From: Anaerobacillus alkalidiazotrophicus
GTDB lineage: Bacteria; Bacillota; Bacilli; Bacillales_H; Anaerobacillaceae
Length of the DNA stretch: 64,000 nt
Direction: 5' to 3'
Assembly: GCF_001866055.1 (NCBI RefSeq)
Contig: NZ_MLQS01000019.1
Span: 62,001 to 126,000, forward strand
Below, piece after piece: positions 13,366 to 55,281 of this stretch. How positions within the stretch are numbered: the stretch's first letter is position 1; the number at the start of each line of letters is the position of its first letter. Under the pieces are notes generated by a model. It saw only the letters and a program-made list of their open reading frames with translations. It did no database searches and was not told where the DNA came from. The translations under genes and the position numbers were made by a program.

Positions 13366-14253
13366 TTATACAGCTGAAGATAAAATCTTTGGCTCTAATG
13401 CAGAATGGACAATTTGTGATTCTTCTAGAGTAAGTGGAACTAACGGTAATCGTACTGACCCAACGTTTTGACCAAGCATTCCAAGTGCAGCTTTTACAGG
13501 AGTTGGGTTAGGGGCAATAAACATTGATTTCATAATTGGTAATAGATTACGATGCATTTGGGCGGCTTGTTTATATTCGCCATTTTGGAATGCGGTAATC
13601 ATTTGCTTCATTTCAAGACCAACAACGTGAGAAGCAACACTTACTACACCGTAACCACCAATTGACATTAATGGTAGCGTTAAACTATCATCTCCAGTAT
13701 AAACTAGGAAATCTTCAGGCGTGTGTTGAATAATATTAGCAATTGCTTCTAAGTCTCCGCTAGCTTCTTTAATACAAACGATATTATCAATTTGAGCAAG
13801 GCGTATAATTGTCTCAGGTAACATATTAACAGCACTTCGTCCAGGAATATTGTAAAGCATTACTGGTAATTCTGTTGATTCAGCTATTGTTTTGAAGTGT
13901 TGATAGAGTCCTTCTTGACTTGGTTTATTATAATAAGGTACGACTAACATAATGCCGTTGACCCCTACAGAACTTGCAATTTTTGTTAACTCTATAGATG
14001 CAACTGTATTATTTGATCCAGTTCCTGCAATTACCGGAACACGCCCGTCTACTACTTCTACAACATATTTAAATAATTCAGTTTTTTCTTCAGTAGTTAA
14101 TGTCGGAGATTCACCTGTTGTTCCAGCAACAACGATACCTTCCGTTCCAGTTGCTATTAAGTAATTAATTAATGAGTTTGTTGCTTGAAAATCAACTTTT
14201 CCTTCTTGATCGAATGGGGTAACCATCGCAGTTAATAATTGCCCAAAATTCAT
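13366..14253 (-). CDS. dapA: 4-hydroxy-tetrahydrodipicolinate synthase
   Basis: DapA condenses pyruvate with aspartate semialdehyde, the first step specific to lysine and diaminopimelate synthesis. The 295-residue protein has the Schiff-base lysine in CIKEASGD (Lys161), Tyr133 and Arg138 in YNIPGR, and the TTGESPT loop (Thr45-Thr46). ATG at 14253 follows AGAGGTG; codons upstream of it lack a well-spaced site. The leader carries a lysine riboswitch and a terminator, which confirms that this copy works in lysine supply. It is a single gene, not part of an asd-dapG operon. Confidence 0.95.
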   Translation of the reverse strand: MNFGQLLTAMVTPFDQEGKVDFQATNSLINYLIATGTEGIVVAGTTGESPTLTTEEKTELFKYVVEVVDGRVPVIAGTGSNNTVASIELTKIASSVGVNGIMLVVPYYNKPSQEGLYQHFKTIAESTELPVMLYNIPGRSAVNMLPETIIRLAQIDNIVCIKEASGDLEAIANIIQHTPEDFLVYTGDDSLTLPLMSIGGYGVVSVASHVVGLEMKQMITAFQNGEYKQAAQMHRNLLPIMKSMFIAPNPTPVKAALGMLGQNVGSVRLPLVPLTLEESQIVHSALEPKILSSAV

Positions 14254-14351
14254 GTAGAACACCTCTATTCATTAGATTTTTTTCGCCATTGTTATTAATG
14301 ACGATGTTAAGTTCTGAATAGAGCTAAATCGCAAAGATCACCGTAAACCTT

Positions 14352-14392: not shown

Positions 14393-14420
14393 GGAAAAAA
14401 TCAACGGTTATTCTAGCGTA

Positions 14421-14609
14421 AGATAGCCCTCCATATAGTAAATAACTATACGACAGTTCTGCATTTATTCAATGACAGACCCAGCAACAAAGCCAATGAG
14501 AAACTCGTCGCTTCGGCAATTCCCCCTTTTCAAACCCGTCAACGGAGCTCACTCTCCTTAAAGTTTGTACTAATGGTCATTGCGCCTCTATCACTTCAAA
14601 AAATGAAGT
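14421..14609 (-). ncRNA. Lysine riboswitch (L box)
   Basis: Read on the minus strand, the region contains GAAGTGATAGAGGCGC, GGAATTGCCGAAGC, TTGCTGGGTCTGTC, CATTGAATAAATGC and GGAGGGCTATCT in the order of the L-box aptamer known from lysC leaders. GATAGAGG and the closing GGGCTATC form the P1 helix. It controls dapA; bound lysine should favour the downstream terminator. Confidence 0.95.
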
Positions 14610-31322: not shown

Positions 31323-32486
31323 ATGAGAGATTTTGAGTTTCAAAATGGGACGAAGATATTATTTGGAAAAGATCAGGAACAATATGTAGGAAGAGAATCT
31401 ACTAGATATGGAAAAAAACTTCTCTTACATTATGGTGGAGGAAGTATTAAGAGCAGTGGTTTATATGATAGAGTTGTTTCTTCATTACGTGAAGAAGATA
31501 TTGAAATTTTTGAATTAGCTGGAGTAAAGCCTAATCCTAGGGTTAGCCTTGTTAGAGAAGGGGTCATAATTTGTAAAGAAAATAATATTGATTTAATTCT
31601 TGCGGTTGGTGGGGGAAGTGTGATTGATTCAGCTAAGGCTATTGCTGCAGGAGCGAAATACGAAGGTGATGTTTGGGATTTCTATACTGGAAAAAATAGT
31701 GTGTCAGACTGTTTACCGATTGGTGTTGTTCTTACTATACCTGCTGCAGGTAGTGAAACGAGTGCTGGTACTGTTATTACAAATGAAGATGGGTTTTACA
31801 AACGAGCAATGGGGCATAACAACTTGCGCCCGAAGTTTTCAATTTTAAATCCAGTGCTTACATATACATTACCTTCATTTCAAACAGCATGCGGTATTAC
31901 AGATATGATGGCACATATTTTGGAGAGATATTTTACAAATGAAAGAAACGTGGAGTTAACAGATCGACTATGTGAAGCTACCTTAAAAACGATTATTAAT
32001 AATGCTCATACAGTTTTAGAAAATCCAACAAGTTATGATGCAAGAGCAGAGATTATGTGGTCCGGAACAATTGCACATAATGATTTGTTAAGCACTGGAA
32101 GAGTAGGTGATTGGGCTAGCCATGACATTGAGCATGAGATTAGCGGAATTTATGATATCGCTCATGGTGCAGGACTTGCGATTGTTTTCCCAGCATGGAT
32201 GAAGTATGTTTACAAACATGACATCAATCGATTTGTTCAATACGCTCATCGTGTTTGGAATGTTGAAATTGATCCTTTTGATTTAGAAAAAACAGCATTA
32301 GCAGGTATTAAGAAAACTGAAGAATTCTTCCGTTCAATTGGTATGCCGATATCGTTAACGGAAGTAAATATTTTTGATGAACATATTGATGAAATGGCCA
32401 AAAAAGGAACTGAAAGAGGCCCCCTCGGTAATTTTGTGAAATTATATGAGGAAGATGTTCGTCAAATTTTACAATTAGCCAAATAA
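31323..32486 (+). CDS. Iron-containing alcohol dehydrogenase (butanol dehydrogenase type)
   Basis: The 387-residue group-III alcohol dehydrogenase has the nucleotide-binding GGGSVIDSAKAIAAG and the metal-binding histidines in HDIEHEISGIYDIAHGAGLA. It resembles BdhA/YugJ-type NAD(P)H-dependent butanol dehydrogenases that reduce aldehydes in fermentation. ATG 31323 follows GAGGAGGGG. It is monocistronic. The substrate is not fixed by sequence. Confidence 0.92.
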   Translation: MRDFEFQNGTKILFGKDQEQYVGRESTRYGKKLLLHYGGGSIKSSGLYDRVVSSLREEDIEIFELAGVKPNPRVSLVREGVIICKENNIDLILAVGGGSVIDSAKAIAAGAKYEGDVWDFYTGKNSVSDCLPIGVVLTIPAAGSETSAGTVITNEDGFYKRAMGHNNLRPKFSILNPVLTYTLPSFQTACGITDMMAHILERYFTNERNVELTDRLCEATLKTIINNAHTVLENPTSYDARAEIMWSGTIAHNDLLSTGRVGDWASHDIEHEISGIYDIAHGAGLAIVFPAWMKYVYKHDINRFVQYAHRVWNVEIDPFDLEKTALAGIKKTEEFFRSIGMPISLTEVNIFDEHIDEMAKKGTERGPLGNFVKLYEEDVRQILQLAK

Positions 32487-32495
32487 AGTAATAGA

Positions 32496-32521
32496 AAAAC
32501 CTCGTAACTATATGAGGCTTT
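32496..32521 (+). terminator. Probable terminator of the alcohol dehydrogenase gene
   Basis: AAACCTC pairs with GAGGCTTT over a short loop; the T run is weak. Confidence 0.5.
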
Positions 32522-32603
32522 GGTTTATAAATACAAAAATCGTTTTAGTTGACATACTGAACGTTTATGGTAAATTTAATATAATTAATAACATACAGCA
32601 TTG

Positions 32604-32697
32604 AACCACTAGGGGTGTCTATTTGACTGAGATTAAAGCCTAGCTTTAAGACCCTTTGAACCTGAACTATCTCATTATAGCGGAGGGAAGTGGAACA
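32604..32697 (+). ncRNA. TPP riboswitch (THI box)
   Basis: The aptamer has AGGGGTGT near its 5' end, the CTGAGAT core (32627-32633), ACCCTTTGAACCTGA (32651-32665) and the 3' GCGGAGGGAAGTGG. This is the order and spacing of thiamine-pyrophosphate riboswitches. A TTGACA hexamer lies at 32549. A terminator follows at 32757, so TPP should switch off the downstream lux-like/ABC operon. Confidence 0.95.
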
Positions 32698-32756
32698 TCA
32701 TGATTAGAGCTATTTATATGAGAGTTTCTATATAAAATTAGTTAATAACGAATGAT

Positions 32757-32790
32757 GATCACTTTCTAAGTAGAAGGTGATCTTTTTGTT
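32757..32790 (+). terminator. Expression-platform terminator of the TPP riboswitch
   Basis: GATCACTTTCTA pairs with AGAAGGTGATC and is followed by a T-rich run, between the aptamer and the first gene of the operon. Confidence 0.85.
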
Positions 32791-32846
32791 TTTTACATAA
32801 GGTTTTCAAAATAGTTTGTTATAATTTTTTTCTGAGGAGGTCTACT

Positions 32847-33965
32847 TTGTTACATACATATATGCAACTACAACAGGAATTGAAGGCATTTATCAGCCAA
32901 CCTTCATCAACTGACGAACAATTTAATACAATGGCGTTAAAATTGTTTCAGTTTCAATATGAATACAATCAGCCTTACCGAAAATTTTGTAGGAAACGTC
33001 GCGTTTTACCTAGGTCAATTAAACACTTTACAGAAATACCACCGGTTCCAATTGATGCATTTAAATTGACGACGTTATCTTCATTTCCGATAGAAGAGAC
33101 TAGCGCTGTTTTTATGACGAGTGGAACAACGAACCAAGACAGAAGAGGGAAAAACTATCACCTTGATTTAGAACTTTATGATTTATCGATGAAAACCCAT
33201 TTTAAGTCTTTTATGATGCCTGAATTAGATAATATGAAAATGTTTATTCTCTTCCCAACACAAGATGAGATGCCAAACTCTTCGTTAGCTCATTATTTAC
33301 ATATTGCAAAAGAGACATTTGGTACCAGTGACAGTAAATATGCATTTACTAATGAAGGTTTTCAAATAAAAACATTAATTGACGATCTTCAATTAGCCGA
33401 AGAAAAAGGGGAGCCAATTATGCTAATTGGTGCAACATTTTCATTTATTCATTTGTTAGATGAATGTAAAAAGAACAACATTCAATTTAAATTGCCGCCA
33501 AATAGTAGGATTATGGATACAGGTGGTGCAAAGGGACGTTCACGTGAAATTGAACTAACTGAGTTTAAAGAAAAGATTAGTGAACTGTGTGAAGTCCCTT
33601 TAGAAATGTGTGTCAACATGTATGGGATGACGGAATTAAGCTCACAAATTTATGACCGAAATCTTTTTGATTATTTTCATCAAAACGAAATTCATACGAC
33701 TAAGGTATCACCTCATTGGGTTAAAACCGTTATCATGGATATAGAAGAAATGAGAGAACAACCGTTAGGAGAAAAGGGACTTATTGTTCATTATGACCTT
33801 GCTAATATTAATTCGGTTTCAAGTATTCTTACTGAAGATATTGGTGTTCAAGGTGACGGTGGATTTTATTTATTAGGTAGAGCAAAAGGTGCGGAGGCAA
33901 AAGGTTGCTCATTAGCTGTTGAACAATTTATGGCTTCATCACAAAATGCTAAAGGGGCATTGTAA
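32847..33965 (+). CDS. LuxE-like acyl-protein synthetase
   Basis: The 372-residue protein belongs to the LuxE family, which activates a carboxylic acid with ATP and transfers the acyl group to an enzyme Cys. It has the adenylate-type motif MTSGTTNQDRRGK near residue 90, VNMYGMTELSSQIYD near 255 and a C-terminal Cys in KGCSLAVEQ (about residue 354), at the place of the acyl-accepting Cys of Vibrio LuxE. TTG 32847 has GAGGAGG 6 bp upstream. It is the first gene after a TPP riboswitch and is followed at once by a LuxC homologue. A role in fatty-acid reduction is family knowledge; I infer a thiamine-related carboxylate from the riboswitch. Confidence 0.87.
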   Translation: MLHTYMQLQQELKAFISQPSSTDEQFNTMALKLFQFQYEYNQPYRKFCRKRRVLPRSIKHFTEIPPVPIDAFKLTTLSSFPIEETSAVFMTSGTTNQDRRGKNYHLDLELYDLSMKTHFKSFMMPELDNMKMFILFPTQDEMPNSSLAHYLHIAKETFGTSDSKYAFTNEGFQIKTLIDDLQLAEEKGEPIMLIGATFSFIHLLDECKKNNIQFKLPPNSRIMDTGGAKGRSREIELTEFKEKISELCEVPLEMCVNMYGMTELSSQIYDRNLFDYFHQNEIHTTKVSPHWVKTVIMDIEEMREQPLGEKGLIVHYDLANINSVSSILTEDIGVQGDGGFYLLGRAKGAEAKGCSLAVEQFMASSQNAKGAL

Positions 33966-33966
33966 A

Positions 33967-35457
33967 ATGACAACACCCTTTCCATGTTATTTCGTTCCGG
34001 AACAAAGTAAACGATTGTTTGGAAATGTTTCACTAAAAACATTAACGTTTGAAAATCATGGACAAAAAGCTGAATTACTAGTTCCTAACCTTAACCCAGA
34101 GCTTATCGAACAGGTTATTAAGTTAATTAAAAAACAACAATTAGAATATATGCAAAATTTAAGGACAAATGAAATTATCGACATCATGGATGAAGCCATT
34201 CAAAAATGGCTAGACCCAAAATACGAACGGAGGCAATATGCTGAGCACTTATTGCCAATTATTACTGGATATGATCATGAAATGATTCGGTTGTTTCTAA
34301 GTCGTTACTTGAGACAATTTCGTAAACCGAAATTACAAAGAATGATTGATGAGGACTTTCCTAATCCGCTAATATTAGACGAATTTCGTCCGCGAAAATC
34401 TGGCGGATTATACAGGGCATATGGACCAAATGTTATTACCCATATTTTTTCAGGAAATGTACCGGCTTTACCACTTTGGAGTTTAACAGCAGGTTTATTG
34501 CTTAAATCTGCAACTTTAGGAAAAGTATCCTCTTCAGAACCGTTATTTCCTGTACTATTTGCTGAGACGTTAAGAGAAATTGATGCAGAGCTTGCTGAAA
34601 GTATAGCCATATTATCTTGGAAGGGCGGCAATAGTGAATTAGAGGATGTAAGCTTTTCTCATTCAAATGCAGTCATCGCATATGGAGGCGATAAAGCCAT
34701 TAATAACATCAAACAAAAGGTTCCTTCTCACGTAAGCTTTCATGCTCATAGTCATAAAATTAGTTTTGGAGTTGTAACCAAAGAATGTTTAGCAACAACG
34801 AAAGCATGGCAAACCGCCAAATTAGCGGCTTATGATGTTTCTTGGTTTGATCAACAAGGCTGCTTATCACCTCATGTGTTTTTTGTTGAGCGTGGTGGCA
34901 AATACTCACCTCGTGAACTTGCTCAAATGCTAGCAAATGAAATGGAAAACTTTCAAACGACACATCCACGAGCATCATTAACAAAAGAAGAACAACATGC
35001 AATTTTAAAGCATCGCTTAAACGTTGAATTTGAAAGTTTTACTAATAATAAAGTAGAGTTAATCAAATGTGAGAACAGTACTGCTTGGACCGTCGTTTAT
35101 CGTGATATGGGTGAAAACAAATCTATAGGGGATACTCTTTTTCCTTTTTCTCCACTTAATCGTTTTGTTACGATTATTCCTATTGAAAACGTATTTGAGA
35201 TAAAAGAGTATAGTAAAAATATTGAAGGTCATATTCAAACGGTAGGGGTTGGTTGTTCTCCAAAACAGTTTTCATCAATCATTTCACTATTAGGGCAATG
35301 CGGTGTTAACCGCATTTGTGCGTTAGGTTCTATGCCTCATCCACAGCCAGGGTGGCACCATGACGGTAGATTCCATTTAGCAGATTTGGTTCGTTTTTGT
35401 GATGTAGAATCTTCACTTGAAGATCAAATGGATCAATTTGACCCTAATAGAGAGTGA
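33967..35457 (+). CDS. LuxC-like acyl-CoA/acyl-protein reductase
   Basis: The 496-residue protein is a LuxC-type reductase of the aldehyde dehydrogenase superfamily. It contains FSGNVPALPLWSLTAGLLLK, the nucleotide region VIAYGGDKAI, and the nucleophile Cys299 in FDQQGCLSPH, which takes the acyl group from LuxE before NADPH reduction to an aldehyde. ATG 33967 follows AAAGGGG and starts 1 bp after the luxE-like stop. No luciferase (luxAB) is present, so the product is not for light emission. The aldehyde may be passed to the SDR encoded at the end of the operon. Confidence 0.9.
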   Translation: MTTPFPCYFVPEQSKRLFGNVSLKTLTFENHGQKAELLVPNLNPELIEQVIKLIKKQQLEYMQNLRTNEIIDIMDEAIQKWLDPKYERRQYAEHLLPIITGYDHEMIRLFLSRYLRQFRKPKLQRMIDEDFPNPLILDEFRPRKSGGLYRAYGPNVITHIFSGNVPALPLWSLTAGLLLKSATLGKVSSSEPLFPVLFAETLREIDAELAESIAILSWKGGNSELEDVSFSHSNAVIAYGGDKAINNIKQKVPSHVSFHAHSHKISFGVVTKECLATTKAWQTAKLAAYDVSWFDQQGCLSPHVFFVERGGKYSPRELAQMLANEMENFQTTHPRASLTKEEQHAILKHRLNVEFESFTNNKVELIKCENSTAWTVVYRDMGENKSIGDTLFPFSPLNRFVTIIPIENVFEIKEYSKNIEGHIQTVGVGCSPKQFSSIISLLGQCGVNRICALGSMPHPQPGWHHDGRFHLADLVRFCDVESSLEDQMDQFDPNRE

Positions 35458-35471
35458 GAGGTGGGACAAAG

Positions 35472-36227
35472 ATGACAGCGATTATCGATTGCCAAGATGT
35501 TGATTTGAAATTTGATGGAGAACATAAACCGATCCTTAAGAATATTAATCTACAAATAAATCAAGGTGAATTTGTTAGTATCATCGGAAAAAGTGGTAGT
35601 GGAAAAACGAGTTTATTACAAATGATTGGTGGGTTACTTGCACCTTCAAAAGGTGAAATCTTAGTAAATGGACAAATTATCAAAAGTCCAATTGACGAAA
35701 TGACGTATGTGTTCCAAAAGCCAGTACTACTAGAATGGCGGAATGTATTAGAGAATGTATTATTACCTATAGAATTAAAACGTCGTCCAAATCAAGTTGA
35801 TAGAAAAAAAGCAAAAGACTTGATTGAAACAGTTGGTTTAGGCGGTCACGAAAAAAAATACCCCCATGAACTTTCAGGCGGAATGATCTCGAGAGTTACA
35901 TTAGCAAGAGCTCTATTAACCGAACCGGAAATTTTATTAATGGACGAGCCGTTTTCAGCACTAGATGCTATGACAAAGGAGCAGATGCAGTTAGAGTTAG
36001 TGGAACTGTCTGTTCAATTTTCAACAACAGTTATTTTTATTACACACGATTTATCTGAAGCTGTTTATTTAGCAGATCGTGTCGTGTTATTAGGTGGAGA
36101 TCCTGCCCAGGTCATTCGTGAATTTTCAGTTCCTTTTCAACGACCGCGACTGAAAGACTGGAAGTTTGAACCTTCGTTTACAAAGATCGTGAAAGAAATT
36201 TATGATGAGATCGAAGGGTTAAAGTGA
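35472..36227 (+). CDS. ABC transporter ATP-binding protein (ThiZ/SsuB type)
   Basis: The 251-residue ATPase has Walker A GKSGSGKTS, the signature LSGGMISR (Met instead of the usual Gln), Walker B ILLMDEPFSALD and the switch His in FITHDLSE. It matches the nitrate/sulfonate/thiamine-precursor subfamily. ATG 35472 is preceded by GAGAGGTGGG. It powers the importer formed with the next two genes. Confidence 0.9.
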   Translation: MTAIIDCQDVDLKFDGEHKPILKNINLQINQGEFVSIIGKSGSGKTSLLQMIGGLLAPSKGEILVNGQIIKSPIDEMTYVFQKPVLLEWRNVLENVLLPIELKRRPNQVDRKKAKDLIETVGLGGHEKKYPHELSGGMISRVTLARALLTEPEILLMDEPFSALDAMTKEQMQLELVELSVQFSTTVIFITHDLSEAVYLADRVVLLGGDPAQVIREFSVPFQRPRLKDWKFEPSFTKIVKEIYDEIEGLK

Positions 36228-36236
36228 GGATAAAGC

Positions 36237-37004
36237 ATGAATAAAAATAAATTTCTTTCATTTTTACTATTCATTACGTTCATAAGTATTTGGGAACTAG
36301 TTGTCCATGTAAGAGAAATTTCAAAGATTATTTTACCTGCTCCTTCTGATATTGTCATTAATCTCATAAATAATTTTCAAAGTGGGTACTTCTACCCTCA
36401 TATATACGCAACAACGGTTGAAGTACTTGGTGGTTTTTTTCTAGGATCCTTTCTTGGAATCAGCTTAGGTTTTCTTGTATCCCAGTCGAAAACAGCTCAA
36501 GAAATTTTACAACCATACATCATTGCTTCCCAAGCAATGCCAAAGCTTGCCTTAGCACCGCTGCTTGTCCTTTGGTTTGGATTTGGGTACACACCTAAAA
36601 TTATCATTGTTGCACTTGTTTGTTTTTTTCCATTATTTGAAAGTACGGTAACAGGCTTAACATACGTGAGTCGAGAAAAATTACAATTATTTCATTCGTT
36701 ACAAGCAACCTCTTTTCAAACGTTAATAAAGCTTCGTTTACCAACAGCTATACCATATATTTTTTCCGGTTTACGTGTAGCCATTGTCCTTAGTGTTGTT
36801 GGTGCAGTCGTAAGCGAGTTTATAGGTGCGAGCAAAGGATTAGGGGCCTTAATTATCGCTTCACAAGGGATGTTAAATACAACATTAACGTTTTCTGTTT
36901 TTATTTTATTAACCATGAAAGGCATGTTATTGTATCAATCGATTTATTGGATTGAAAAACTATTTTTAAAAAAATATATTTATTCTAGGGGGAAAACAAA
37001 ATGA
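36237..37004 (+). CDS. ABC transporter permease (ThiX/SsuC type)
   Basis: The 255-residue permease has about six membrane segments and the BPD-transporter EAA-like loop around SLQATSFQTLIKLRLPTAIP. It follows the ATPase by 9 bp and overlaps the binding-protein gene by 4 bp (ATGA). Together they form a full importer of the NMT1/THI5-type substrate class. Confidence 0.9.
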   Translation: MNKNKFLSFLLFITFISIWELVVHVREISKIILPAPSDIVINLINNFQSGYFYPHIYATTVEVLGGFFLGSFLGISLGFLVSQSKTAQEILQPYIIASQAMPKLALAPLLVLWFGFGYTPKIIIVALVCFFPLFESTVTGLTYVSREKLQLFHSLQATSFQTLIKLRLPTAIPYIFSGLRVAIVLSVVGAVVSEFIGASKGLGALIIASQGMLNTTLTFSVFILLTMKGMLLYQSIYWIEKLFLKKYIYSRGKTK

Positions 37005-38050
37005 AACGATTTGTAAAGAAAATGAGTGTAGCATTTTTATTTAGTGCACTAACATTTACTATCGCTGCTTGTGGTGCAGCTAATGAGGATGTTCAAGAAG
37101 AACAACAAGGAGACAATCAAGTAGTTGAAGAACAAACCGTTGAAAAAATAAGAATGGCTTCTTGGAGTAACCCAATTGCCGAACAAAGCAATCTGTATGT
37201 CGCTGAGGAAAAAGGATGGTTTGAAGAAGCGGGTCTTGAGTTCGAATACATCCCAGGCCAAGGTGGTGGAGATGCGGTTCGAAATATCATTGCAGGGAAT
37301 GCTGATATTGCTTTTGCTAATGTAGAGGCTGTTCTATTAGCGCTTGAAAAAGGAGAGAAATTACGTGTCATCTATAATATTTACCCTGAAAATGTCTTTA
37401 ACCTAGTATCTCTAAAAGAAAACAACATTACTTCAATAGAAGATTTACGTGGGAAAAATGTTGGCGTGTATAGCCGTGCAAGTGGGACGTATGATAACCT
37501 GCTTGTTTTACTTCACAAAGCAGGAATGACCGAAGATGATATTACGATCGTAGATGCTGGTGTTTTAAATTTTGGTCCTTTAATGAACAATCAAGTAGCA
37601 GCTACAGCCGCAACAGATACTGGACTTTTTAGTGCGCAGCTAGAAGGGTTAGGAGAGGTAGATGTTATAGAAGTTAAAGATGTTTTAAACACACCGGCTG
37701 ACGTTTTTGTTGTAACGGAAAAAGTGTTCAATGAAAAACAAGATATGTTGCTCCGTTTCTTACAAGTGTATCGTGATAGTGTTGCCTATACGATGGAAAA
37801 CCCTGAAGAAGCAGCTGAAATTGCTGTTTCACATGCGATCGATGGGCAAAACGTAGAGAGAAACCTTGGAATTATTCATATCCGTAACCAAACTTCGATA
37901 AATGAAGAAATGAAAGAAAAAGGGTTAGGTTGGTTGGATCTTGATATATTAAAAGAAGTAGAAGAAACGTATTATAACTTAGGGTTACTAAATGAAAGAG
38001 TTTATATTGAAACGATTACGACAAATGAACTGGTGGAACAGTTAAACTAG
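37001..38050 (+). CDS. Lipoprotein substrate-binding protein, NMT1/THI5-like (ThiY type)
   Basis: The 349-residue lipoprotein has a signal peptide ending in the lipobox TIAACG, a charged linker and then an NMT1-type binding domain beginning IRMASWSNPIAEQSNLYVAE. GNADIAFANVEAVLLAL and LRGKNVGVYSRASGTYDN are the usual ligand-pocket blocks. ThiY of this family binds formylaminopyrimidine, a thiamine breakdown product. With a TPP riboswitch upstream, a thiamine-precursor ligand is likely, but its identity is unknown. Confidence 0.88.
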   Translation: MKRFVKKMSVAFLFSALTFTIAACGAANEDVQEEQQGDNQVVEEQTVEKIRMASWSNPIAEQSNLYVAEEKGWFEEAGLEFEYIPGQGGGDAVRNIIAGNADIAFANVEAVLLALEKGEKLRVIYNIYPENVFNLVSLKENNITSIEDLRGKNVGVYSRASGTYDNLLVLLHKAGMTEDDITIVDAGVLNFGPLMNNQVAATAATDTGLFSAQLEGLGEVDVIEVKDVLNTPADVFVVTEKVFNEKQDMLLRFLQVYRDSVAYTMENPEEAAEIAVSHAIDGQNVERNLGIIHIRNQTSINEEMKEKGLGWLDLDILKEVEETYYNLGLLNERVYIETITTNELVEQLN

Positions 38051-38059
38051 GTGATAAAT

Positions 38060-38836
38060 ATGGATACACAATTACAACAAAAAGTTGTCCTCATAACAGG
38101 TTCAAGTAGAGGGATAGGAGCTGCGATCGCAAGAGGTTTTGCAGAGCAAGGGGCAACGGTTGTCATCAATTATTTGAAAAATAAAGAGAGGGCCGAGCAA
38201 CTAGCAAATGAACTAATCGAGAAGTATGATGTTGATGCTTATACAGTACAAGGTGATGTAACAAATGAAGCAGATATGAAATCTTTGTTTGAGGAGGTTA
38301 TCTCTGAATTTGATACGATTGATATTGTTGTCAACAACGCTCTACATGCATATGCGTTCGATCCCGAACAACGAAAGCTCGCTTGGGAACTTGAATGGGA
38401 AGATTACCAACGACAAATCGATGGCGCATTAAAGGGGACGTATAATGTATGCAAACATGCAATCTCTATTATGAAGAAAAAGAGAGCGGGACGGATTATA
38501 AACATGGTTAGTAACCTTGTTTATCGTCCAATTGTACCATACCATGATTATAATACTGCTAAAGCAGCCGTCCTTACGTATTCTCAAAACTTAGCGGTAG
38601 ATGTTGGAACTTTTGGTATCAATGTCAATTGCGTAGCACCGGGTCTTGTTTATCCGACTGATGCAAGTAGAACAACAAAAGAGGAAATAAAAGAATTGAT
38701 AAAGCAGCAAACCCCACTTCATAGAATTGCTACACCTAATGATGTTGTTGGTAGTGTATTATTTTTTGCAAGCAGCTGGTCAACGTTTGTTACTGGACAA
38801 TGCATGGTCGTTGACGGTGGATTGGTCATGAAATAA
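38060..38836 (+). CDS. Short-chain dehydrogenase/reductase
   Basis: The 258-residue SDR has the cofactor motif TGSSRGIGAAIARGFA, the structural NNA in VVNNALHAYA and the catalytic YNTAK. It resembles FabG-type 3-oxoacyl reductases. AGGTGA before ATG 38060 and a 9-bp gap place it at the end of the TPP-riboswitch operon. I infer that it could reduce the aldehyde made by the LuxE/LuxC pair to an alcohol; a 3-oxoacyl substrate is the alternative. Confidence 0.85.
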   Translation: MDTQLQQKVVLITGSSRGIGAAIARGFAEQGATVVINYLKNKERAEQLANELIEKYDVDAYTVQGDVTNEADMKSLFEEVISEFDTIDIVVNNALHAYAFDPEQRKLAWELEWEDYQRQIDGALKGTYNVCKHAISIMKKKRAGRIINMVSNLVYRPIVPYHDYNTAKAAVLTYSQNLAVDVGTFGINVNCVAPGLVYPTDASRTTKEEIKELIKQQTPLHRIATPNDVVGSVLFFASSWSTFVTGQCMVVDGGLVMK

Positions 38837-38847
38837 CATATTTATAT

Positions 38848-38880
38848 GGGACTGTTCAACTGTGAACGGTCCTATTTTTT
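38848..38880 (+). terminator. Operon terminator
   Basis: GGACTGTTCA pairs with TGAACGGTCC, followed by a T-rich run, 12 bp after the SDR gene. Confidence 0.88.
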
Positions 38881-39030
38881 AGTTTTTAGGTAGATGATGT
38901 TTTACATTGTAATTGTTGTGATGAGTGGTTGGTCTCAAAAAAGGAGACAGGAGGTAAAAGAAAAAACATGCCACTCTTTTTGGAGAAAGAGTGACGATGA
39001 TTATGAAATTAAAGACAATTGTAGTAAAGG

Positions 39031-39076: not shown

Positions 39077-40171
39077 TTATAAGGAAAAACTTAAACGTTC
39101 AATTGCTTGTTTTCGTGTATGATCTTGAACATGGGCATATACCTGTGTTGTTGCAACAGATTCATGGCCGAGTAAACTTTGAACCGTCAACACATCAACA
39201 CCATTCTCAATTAATGCAGTCGCAAATGTATGTCTTAACTTGTGTGCAGTTATTGGCTTATCTCTTAAAATAGGAACATGTGATTTTGCTCGCTCAATCG
39301 TACGTTGGATCATTTTCTGTAATGCACTTAATGTAACTGATTCTGTATATGAATTTGTTTTAAAGTCATAGCCGATGATCAGTGAAGCACGTGATGTTTC
39401 TCTTCTTGATGAAGGAGGAAGTGAATGTAAATAAAATTGAATAGTCTTTATCGTTTCACTCGTAAGTGGAATTGTTCTTTCCTTATTTCCTTTTCCTCGT
39501 ACAGTTAACGTTTGGCGCTCAAACTGTATATCCTTCATTTTTAAAGCAGAAAGTTCAGAAATGCGTAAGCCTGTTGACGTTAATAAATAAAAAACTAAGT
39601 AATCACGGTGTTTTAATTTTTCATGGTAAAGCCGTTTTCGTAGATTTTTTTCAGGTTGTTCAGTTTTAATATAGTCTAGTAATTGGCGCACTTCTCTTTG
39701 TGTTAAAAATATAGGTTCACGCTTTCCAATTTTCGGTCTGTTCACATTTGTAACTGGGTTAGTTGTTGTTTTTTCTATTTCAATGAAATAATCAAATAAG
39801 GATTGCAGGGCTGATAGTTTACGATTAATCGTACGTGCTTCATTTTCAACTTCTAATGAAAGGTAACTTACATAAAGTTGAACAGAGGACGTTTCTAGTT
39901 TTAAAAAATCTTCTAAAGGAAGCTGAATAATATCTTCTAACTTGCTTTCCGTTTGTTTCATTACATATGTAAAAAAATCACAAAAATCATAAATATAACG
40001 TTGGATGGTAGCTTTAGAATATCCGAGTGTAATTCTGCTGATTAAATAGTCTTGAATAAAAAAGGGTAGATGCTCAATTCGGTTATATTCATTTTTCAAT
40101 GCTTCATGTTGGAAATTATTTGTATTTTTTTCTTCTGATCGAATCGCATTTAATCTTGCAAACAATGACAC
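39077..40171 (-). CDS. Tyrosine recombinase, XerS-like
   Basis: The 364-residue integrase-family protein has a SAM-like N-terminal domain (about 45-150) and a C-terminal catalytic domain. The first Arg is in TGLRISELSALK, the Lys in RGKGNKERTIPLT, the His-x-x-Arg in AHKLRHTFATAL, the second His in LLGHESVATTQ and the nucleophile Tyr in QVYAHV. Its length exceeds XerC/XerD and is close to XerS. GAGGTGA favours GTG 40171; the frame begins 9 bp earlier inside that site. No mobile element is visible around it, so a housekeeping or site-specific role is possible. A 38-bp palindrome lies 33 bp upstream. Confidence 0.88.
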   Translation of the reverse strand: MSLFARLNAIRSEEKNTNNFQHEALKNEYNRIEHLPFFIQDYLISRITLGYSKATIQRYIYDFCDFFTYVMKQTESKLEDIIQLPLEDFLKLETSSVQLYVSYLSLEVENEARTINRKLSALQSLFDYFIEIEKTTTNPVTNVNRPKIGKREPIFLTQREVRQLLDYIKTEQPEKNLRKRLYHEKLKHRDYLVFYLLTSTGLRISELSALKMKDIQFERQTLTVRGKGNKERTIPLTSETIKTIQFYLHSLPPSSRRETSRASLIIGYDFKTNSYTESVTLSALQKMIQRTIERAKSHVPILRDKPITAHKLRHTFATALIENGVDVLTVQSLLGHESVATTQVYAHVQDHTRKQAIERLSFSL

Positions 40172-40203
40172 TATTATCACCTCAATTCTAGTTTATCGTA
40201 AAA

Positions 40204-54541: not shown

Positions 54542-54724
54542 ATTAAACACCTCCTACATACAAACGTATAGTAATAGGACGCTTATTATGCATATTTAAA
54601 CAGAAAAATTAATCTCAACATACTAAACATTTTAAAGAAAAAATTAGTTTTATTATCTATTCCTTGCAAAACGATAATAAATATTATTTAATAGATTTAG
54701 AAAATTTAATAATTTCATTTAAGA

Positions 54725-54885
54725 GTGCTTCATATTAAAATGTGAAGATAATAGGGAAATCGGTTAGAGTCCGATGCAGCCCCCGCTACTGTATTCGCTG
54801 ATGAAATTGTCTGTAACCACTGACGTTTAAGTTGGGAAGGAGGCAAGAGTAGAAAGAAGCGTAAGCCAGGAGACCTGCTTTTAAA
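54725..54885 (+). ncRNA. Cobalamin riboswitch 1
   Basis: The region has GGGAAATCGGTTAGAGTCCG, the B12-box GATGCAGCCCCCGCTACTGT, and the 3' AAGCCAGGAGACCTGCTT, in the order of adenosylcobalamin aptamers. A terminator follows at 54967. No gene lies between it and the second cobalamin aptamer, so both sit in one leader. Confidence 0.92.
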
Positions 54886-54966
54886 GTTGTTTCTTTATTC
54901 TTCGGTGGGAGGGATAGAATTCATATGATATATAAGTTATTTTACTTTATCTATTTATGTGTTCTA

Positions 54967-55054: not shown

Positions 55055-55084
55055 AGACATTTCAACAATTAAATATCTTACAAA

Positions 55085-55281
55085 AAGGTACGTGACCTTA
55101 AAGGTAACGTTTAAAAGGGAAGATGGTGTAAATCCGTCACGGTTCCCGCCACTGTAATGGGAAGATTCTCAAACAGTATTTAAGTTTACAGGGTCTTATG
55201 GAGTTAGTGAACCAGCTGCTCGTTTGTATAGTGGAGCAAGTCACTATCACTAACAAAGAAAAATCAGGGAACGTCACGATT
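55085..55281 (+). ncRNA. Cobalamin riboswitch 2
   Basis: It has AAGGGAAGATGGTGTAAATC, the B12-box CGGTTCCCGCCACTGTAATG, and the closing strand AACGTCACG that pairs with CGTGACCTT at the 5' end. No terminator follows. CCTTTTTAGAAAGG at 55297-55310 can hide the ribosome binding site of cbiA, suggesting translational control. Confidence 0.88.

Follow-up and report, generated by a model that had tools for sequence, protein, structure and literature searches.

Why should a gene pair related to the luxE and luxC of bacterial luminescence stand under a thiamine pyrophosphate (TPP) riboswitch, together with an importer and a dehydrogenase? The question is raised by an operon of Anaerobacillus alkalidiazotrophicus (assembly GCF_001866055.1, contig NZ_MLQS01000019.1), found in a stretch of 64,000 nucleotides (positions 62,001-126,000, forward strand) that is called the window below and whose own coordinates are used throughout. 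The favoured reading, to which we give a probability of about 0.68, is that the operon is a TPP-repressed salvage route reducing a thiamine-derived carboxylic acid to an alcohol. We know of no thiamine salvage route that recovers oxidised breakdown products. If the reading is correct, bacteria recover vitamin B1 from such products, and the LuxE/LuxC pair gains a role outside luminescence.

The whole unit occupies positions 32601-38836 and, with the putative promoter ahead of it, consists of the following features:

32549-32576, forward strand: sigma-70-like promoter candidate (TTGACA, spacer 16, TAAATT), from a consensus scan, 10 of 12 positions
32601-32705, forward strand: TPP riboswitch aptamer RF00059, 74.0 bits against a gathering score of 54.3
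32757-32782, forward strand: predicted intrinsic terminator hairpin, 11 pairs and a T tail
32847-33965, forward strand: LuxE/PaaK-type acyl-protein synthetase, 372 amino acids, TTG start, PF04443 at 92.5 bits, acyl Cys354
33967-35457, forward strand: LuxC-type acyl reductase, 496 amino acids, PF05893 at 320.7 bits, catalytic Cys299; ATG 33967 is the most likely start
35472-36227, forward strand: ATP-binding cassette (ABC) transporter ATPase, PF00005 (ABC_tran) at 111.7 bits
36237-37004, forward strand: ABC transporter permease, PF00528 (BPD_transp_1) at 101.3 bits
37001-38050, forward strand: NMT1/THI5-like substrate-binding lipoprotein, NMT1 at 156.9 bits
38051-38836, forward strand: short-chain dehydrogenase (SDR) of NF006393, 296.9 bits against a cut-off of 292, adh_short_C2 at 199.9 bits; the true start may be the ATG at 38060, nine bases on

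The six open reading frames are tightly packed 3' of the leader, with gaps of at most 14 bases or a 4-base overlap, and the order is luxE-luxC-ABC ATPase-permease-NMT1 lipoprotein-SDR. The original prediction, made from the sequence alone, had described an aptamer and a terminator leading into six closely spaced genes of these families. The packing and the Pfam matches bear out the gene set, and the leader was confirmed as well, except that the aptamer begins at 32601 and not at 32604.

In the leader, the terminator's 5' arm has a possible alternative partner, made up of the 3' strand of aptamer helix P1 and the bases that follow (-15.1 kcal/mol; the terminator by itself reaches -14.2). This antiterminator pairing is present in the minimum-energy fold of a transcript ending before the 3' half of the terminator. 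The expression platform is thus predicted to be coupled to P1, through a terminator and an antiterminator that uses the P1 3' strand. This is, by prediction, the usual geometry of an OFF switch, in which bound TPP should favour termination. The region has two terminator-like sites where shuffled sequences have 0.1 on average, whereas the promoter scan returned one site against a shuffle mean of 1.9 and is weak evidence for 32549-32576. The folding stability of the whole leader is unremarkable (z -1.25; 26 of 200 shuffles were equally stable).

The LuxE and LuxC proteins were claimed to keep their acyl-carrying cysteines, and this was upheld well beyond the window. Cys354 of LuxE aligns with the GCSL cysteine of the LuxE in PDB 7xc6 and Cys299 of LuxC with the DQQ-C cysteine of the LuxC in the same structure, residues which we take to be the acyl carriers; they are kept in 33 of 33 LuxE and 32 of 32 readable LuxC proteins of the in-clade loci defined below. 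The absence of a luciferase also held for the operon, whose six genes include none of luxA, luxB and luxD. An iron alcohol dehydrogenase lies just upstream (31323-32486); it was rejected as a member of the operon, since it occurs at that place in one of six relatives, the sister species. Another relative, locus L008, has an alcohol dehydrogenase with 29% identity at a different place in that locus.

In the LuxE/LuxC family, LuxE converts an acid through acyl-AMP to a thioester and LuxC converts the thioester to an aldehyde; with an SDR added, such chemistry would lead from acid to alcohol. Under the favoured reading, scarcity of TPP would let transcription proceed past the riboswitch, and the NMT1-type ABC importer would take up an oxidised thiamine fragment. 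LuxE would activate its carboxylate with ATP and hold it as a thioester on Cys354, LuxC would accept the acyl group on Cys299 and, using NAD(P)H, convert it to the aldehyde, from which the SDR would form an alcohol re-entering thiamine synthesis.

The enzymes could instead reduce an acid unrelated to thiamine, for example a fatty acid, with TPP control being incidental. Known LuxE and LuxC proteins use long-chain fatty acids, and public annotations of proteins such as these name fatty acid enzymes (long-chain fatty acid-coenzyme A (CoA) ligase, acyl-CoA reductase, 3-oxoacyl-acyl carrier protein reductase). However, the two proteins fall far short of the NCBIfam luminescence equivalogs NF052244 and NF052251 (66.8 against 550 and 112 against 750 bits), the operon is devoid of luxA, luxB and luxD, nearly all the examined loci have the aptamer, and 25 of 33 have an importer of the substrate-binding or NCS2 type. 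An unrelated substrate is accordingly regarded as quite improbable.

Does the linkage of riboswitch and lux genes recur? Loci were collected by luxE and luxC searches that made no use of the riboswitch. A LuxC scan of genome contigs gave six loci, all with the same six genes in the same order, 62-97% identity and a TPP aptamer (6/6). LuxE surveys found matches in 11 of 398 genomes in a sample of the class and in 19 of 398 in the phylum, where four (one already known) scored at least 489 bits and 15 at most 315 bits. One family contributed five of 261 genomes, at 480 bits or more and with two already known, and another two of four, both already known. In a plasmid collection, 41 records matched LuxE, 27 at 39.8% identity or more and 14 at 27.5% or less; the 27 belong to Pantoea (13), Azospirillum (9), and Niallia, Priestia, Pseudomonas, Lactiplantibacillus and Levilactobacillus (one each).

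The high-scoring LuxE set is termed in-clade. Its boundary is a gap in the scores, backed weakly by a LuxE tree in which a branch sets the 23 in-clade rows apart (support 59/73, recovered in 58% of bootstrap trees); an outgroup row of that tree is very long. The 33 in-clade loci comprise the window, the six of the LuxC scan, ten more from the class, three each from the phylum and family surveys, and ten of the 27 plasmid records. Genomes G001 and G002 share one locus with the same coordinates, which entered the count a single time; because the protein accessions of L192 and L193 are identical, the 33 loci are not independent.

In 29 of these 33 loci, the window included, a TPP aptamer reaches the gathering score, and in three more a weaker one lies below the cut-off (G089 52.7, G177 42.2 and the Priestia locus 49.0 bits). 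The original prediction had turned on the linkage recurring in related genomes, and it does so across both Bacillota and Pseudomonadota, all but one of the 33 in-clade loci having an aptamer; the hosts include Bacilli, other Bacillota, Azospirillum, Pantoea and Pseudomonas, with some of the loci coming from plasmid records. The out-of-clade loci that were opened (seven of the 15 phylum-survey genomes and one of the 14 distant plasmid records) have no TPP aptamer (0/8), the threshold being the gathering score in one search and E up to 0.5 in the other. The Priestia megaterium plasmid L200 encodes a different LuxE (27% identity), together with a fatty acyl-AMP ligase, a cysteine desulfurase and a phosphopantetheine-binding protein; a search at E up to 0.5 gave no TPP riboswitch on it. 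That the lux genes are mere chance neighbours of a riboswitch would find a foothold in the one in-clade locus without an aptamer, G910. Against this stand the other 32 loci and the bounds of the similarity, which in five of five relatives outside the sister species begins with the leader and ends with the SDR; chance linkage was therefore rejected, its probability being negligible.

Within the unit, some parts are more constant than others. LuxC similarity was present in 33 of 33 in-clade loci (only in part in L051, the contig of which stops about 0.8 kb past luxE), and the SDR in all 32 with readable context. The importer varies: a substrate-binding protein and permease of the NMT1-type ABC kind occur in 20 loci, an NCS2 permease in five, and neither in seven, L051 being unreadable. 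The NCS2 permease is PF00860 in four of its five loci, and L193 carries the same accession as L192. Because SDR and LuxC are near-constant while the importer varies, luxE-luxC-SDR can be regarded as the core, with an importer that is exchangeable. The aptamer precedes the permease in NCS2 loci and heads a longer operon in L050.

When window positions 22001-48000 were compared with relatives beyond the sister species, similarity spanned about 32500 to 38999, from leader to SDR end, in all five. Since it starts and stops at the ends of the unit, the unit seems to move as a block. Plasmid records carrying it come from Lactiplantibacillus, Levilactobacillus, Priestia, Niallia, Pantoea, Pseudomonas and Azospirillum. 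The plasmids L192 (10 kb, Lactiplantibacillus plantarum) and L193 (21 kb, Levilactobacillus brevis) have the same TPP-NCS2-luxE-luxC-SDR cassette. On a Pseudomonas silvicola plasmid (L197, 7001-10267), the cassette has a TPP riboswitch (63.8 bits) and broken frames, and in G410 (L129, 4720-5744) its lipoprotein gene is split over two open reading frames. Just beyond the operon in the window lies a gene that by eye resembles a tyrosine recombinase (39077-40180, reverse strand); no similarity was found there in the six relative loci.

What might the importer carry? The substrate-binding protein belongs to the NMT1/THI5 family and fold. A search of its model with Foldseek gave a thiamin-bound protein as the best match, whereas VIA-align placed a protein binding formylaminopyrimidine (FAMP) first and the thiamin-bound protein second. 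The motif DWxPNxxH, present in five of five ThiY-like proteins compared, is absent from 13 of 13 lux-associated ones, which have S or L, I, and Q or S at the D, N and H positions, respectively. No ylmB or tenA is among the six window genes, and none was noted by eye in the other cassettes. A TPP-controlled YlmB/TenA/ThiXYZ set was seen by eye in G003 and G177, and parts of it in G005, G006, G007 and G129. In G003 and G177 the lux importer is therefore additional, and the idea that it is simply ThiXYZ was rejected on these grounds and for want of the motif.

Which acid, then, would be reduced? A hydroxyethyl or hydroxymethyl group is found in thiamine and in its moieties. Within the salvage reading, the most likely substrate, at a little under even odds, is 4-methylthiazole-5-acetic acid, which would give hydroxyethylthiazole for ThiM. 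Thiamine genes are joined to the cassette in four of the 33 loci; the flanks of the remaining loci were inspected by eye and not annotated by profile. In G177, thiM is the last gene of the cassette (PF02110, 320 bits). In G156, luxE shares one aptamer with the genes ahead of it, which encode a TMP-TENI protein, ThiG, ThiF and, by eye, a ThiO-like protein. Niallia taxi has tandem TPP aptamers followed by thiW (TIGR02359, 175 bits, cut-off 84), NCS2, luxE, luxC and SDR. In G525, divergent aptamers lead to thiD-thiM-thiE on one side and to luxE-luxC-SDR, with a 3' gene for an AIRS-ThiN protein, on the other. This genome is 100% complete and keeps the cassette core; ThiC is absent from it, and ThiG appears only as partial matches of 22-34 bits, such as occur in other genomes beside a ThiG of 340-376 bits. 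It is the joins to thiM, thiW and the thiG operon, one locus each, that place the thiazole acid first, ahead of a pyrimidine acid and of thiamine acetic acid.

The same machinery might instead turn 4-amino-2-methylpyrimidine-5-carboxylic acid into hydroxymethylpyrimidine (HMP), to be phosphorylated by ThiD, a tentative second candidate. To judge from a 1964 title cited by PMC7780320, pyrimidine carboxylic acid is a recorded thiamine metabolite. The route would dispense with ThiM, in keeping with the ThiM-less G156 and G113, and G082, which is without ThiC, keeps ThiG; the only importers noticed at its five TPP loci are a ThiT-like one (by eye) and the lux importer. The first VIA-align match to a FAMP-binding protein, the nucleobase-type NCS2 permease of five loci and the YkoE-like divergent neighbour in G306 point the same way. 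On the other hand, the substrate-binding proteins lack the motif of the ThiY-like ones, the genes joined to the cassette in G177, G156 and Niallia speak for the thiazole branch, and a pyrimidine route through YlmB, TenA and ThiXYZ is already present, by eye, in some carriers.

Import of intact thiamine acetic acid, its reduction to thiamine and subsequent pyrophosphorylation, placed third, appear rather unlikely. A 1970 title cited by PMC7575681 records thiamine acetic acid, alongside FAMP, as a metabolite of thiamine. Such a route would work without ThiM or ThiC, and the thiamin-bound protein is the first Foldseek and second VIA-align match of the lipoprotein; yet the joins to thiM or the thiG operon would be left unexplained. 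Nor do we know of an NCS2 permease that carries a cation of the size of thiamine. A bacterial salvage route is known for FAMP (Jenkins 2007, as cited in PMC5627462), which makes a parallel one for the acids reasonable.

Several observations weigh against the salvage reading, or against its thiazole form. The characterised relatives of LuxE and LuxC use long-chain fatty acids, the cassette is rare (found in 11 of the 398 genomes sampled from the class), and the in-clade G910 has no detectable TPP aptamer even at E up to 1 (Rfam). Counted among carriers only, ThiM was over its cut-off in 12 of 16; it was not found in the 100% complete genomes G156 and G113, for which a thiazole-only reading is thereby contradicted, nor in the drafts G006 and G089. 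G082, without ThiC and with ThiG and ThiM, would fit a pyrimidine or whole-thiamine substrate better. In G306, luxE-luxC-SDR lies divergent from a TPP-controlled YkoE-like gene (PF09819; by eye) and not from a thiazole gene. YkoE is a component of a transporter described in PMC5627462 for HMP or thiamin, and this neighbour thus points to pyrimidine or thiamin rather than thiazole. Most carriers, moreover, have de novo synthesis of both moieties (ThiC in 17 of 19, full-length ThiG in 21 of 22), for which reason auxotrophy was rejected as a general explanation of the cassette. The thiamine-salvage interpretation of the original prediction is thus supported in part, by the aptamer linkage, the four thiamine-gene joins and the retention of the core in G525 without ThiC or full-length ThiG.

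The SDR also occurs under TPP riboswitches apart from lux genes. G092 (L156, 5585-7215) has, separate from its lux cassette, a TPP riboswitch and an SDR overlapping thiM. In G306 (L168, 4107-6269), a TPP riboswitch is followed by an NF006393 SDR and an NtaA/DmoA-type flavin monooxygenase (TIGR03860, 487 bits). G007 has a lone SDR under TPP control. These three lux-free SDRs pass NF006393 at 360-435 bits and group together (100/100) among the lux SDRs, in a tree that includes one unrelated SDR and long rows. Flavin monooxygenases of the NtaA/DmoA type can release aldehydes, and that of G306 may feed the same SDR step. A wider proposal is given somewhat better than an even chance: that TPP-controlled import and LuxE/LuxC reduction of acid catabolites of thiamine form a widespread, partly plasmid-borne and undescribed B1 salvage, in which the NF006393 SDR would be a hub aldehyde reductase also fed by other routes, such as the G306 monooxygenase and the SDR beside ThiM in G092.

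Two further kinds of riboswitch were seen in the window. Tandem cobalamin riboswitches (54706-54896 and 55073-55233; 115.4 and 47.2 bits) lie ahead of genes that by eye belong to cobalamin metabolism (55286 onward), and a lysine riboswitch (14416-14598, reverse strand, 119.9 bits) lies ahead of a gene that by eye is dapA-like (13366-14262).

Among the matches listed in the open-licence literature, no description of the riboswitch-lux linkage was found, and two that looked suggestive turned out not to concern it. The term LuxE occurs zero times in the main text of a study of the TPP regulons of 249 genomes (PMC3766115), and likewise in the main text of PMC5627462.

The operon resembles four known systems without coinciding with any. 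Like the luminescence LuxC-LuxE pair (PDB 7xc6), it has a synthetase and an acyl reductase side by side with the acyl cysteines of both conserved; unlike it, the operon is without luxD and luciferase, falls below the equivalog cut-offs, and has a TPP riboswitch, an importer and an SDR. With the FAMP route (ThiXYZ-YlmB-TenA) it shares a TPP riboswitch, an NMT1-type ABC importer and enzymes that would turn a thiamine breakdown product into a precursor, but it has reductases instead of a deformylase and TenA, and a substrate-binding protein without DWxPNxxH. Thiazole salvage touches the cassette through thiM in G177 and thiW in Niallia, and through the thiM joined to the paralogous SDR in G092; ThiM and ThiW handle the alcohol itself, whereas the cassette would make that alcohol from an acid. 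A fourth comparison is with OarX, which may belong to the SDR family of the last gene (NF006393). It is reportedly the thiamin-regulated SDR of Rodionov et al. 2002, and is not known to have an assigned reaction. TPP-controlled NF006393 relatives occur in G007, G092 and G306; the cassette differs in its LuxE/LuxC partners. The cassette is best read as a probable thiamine salvage system built from known enzyme families, with a linkage that seems to be undescribed.

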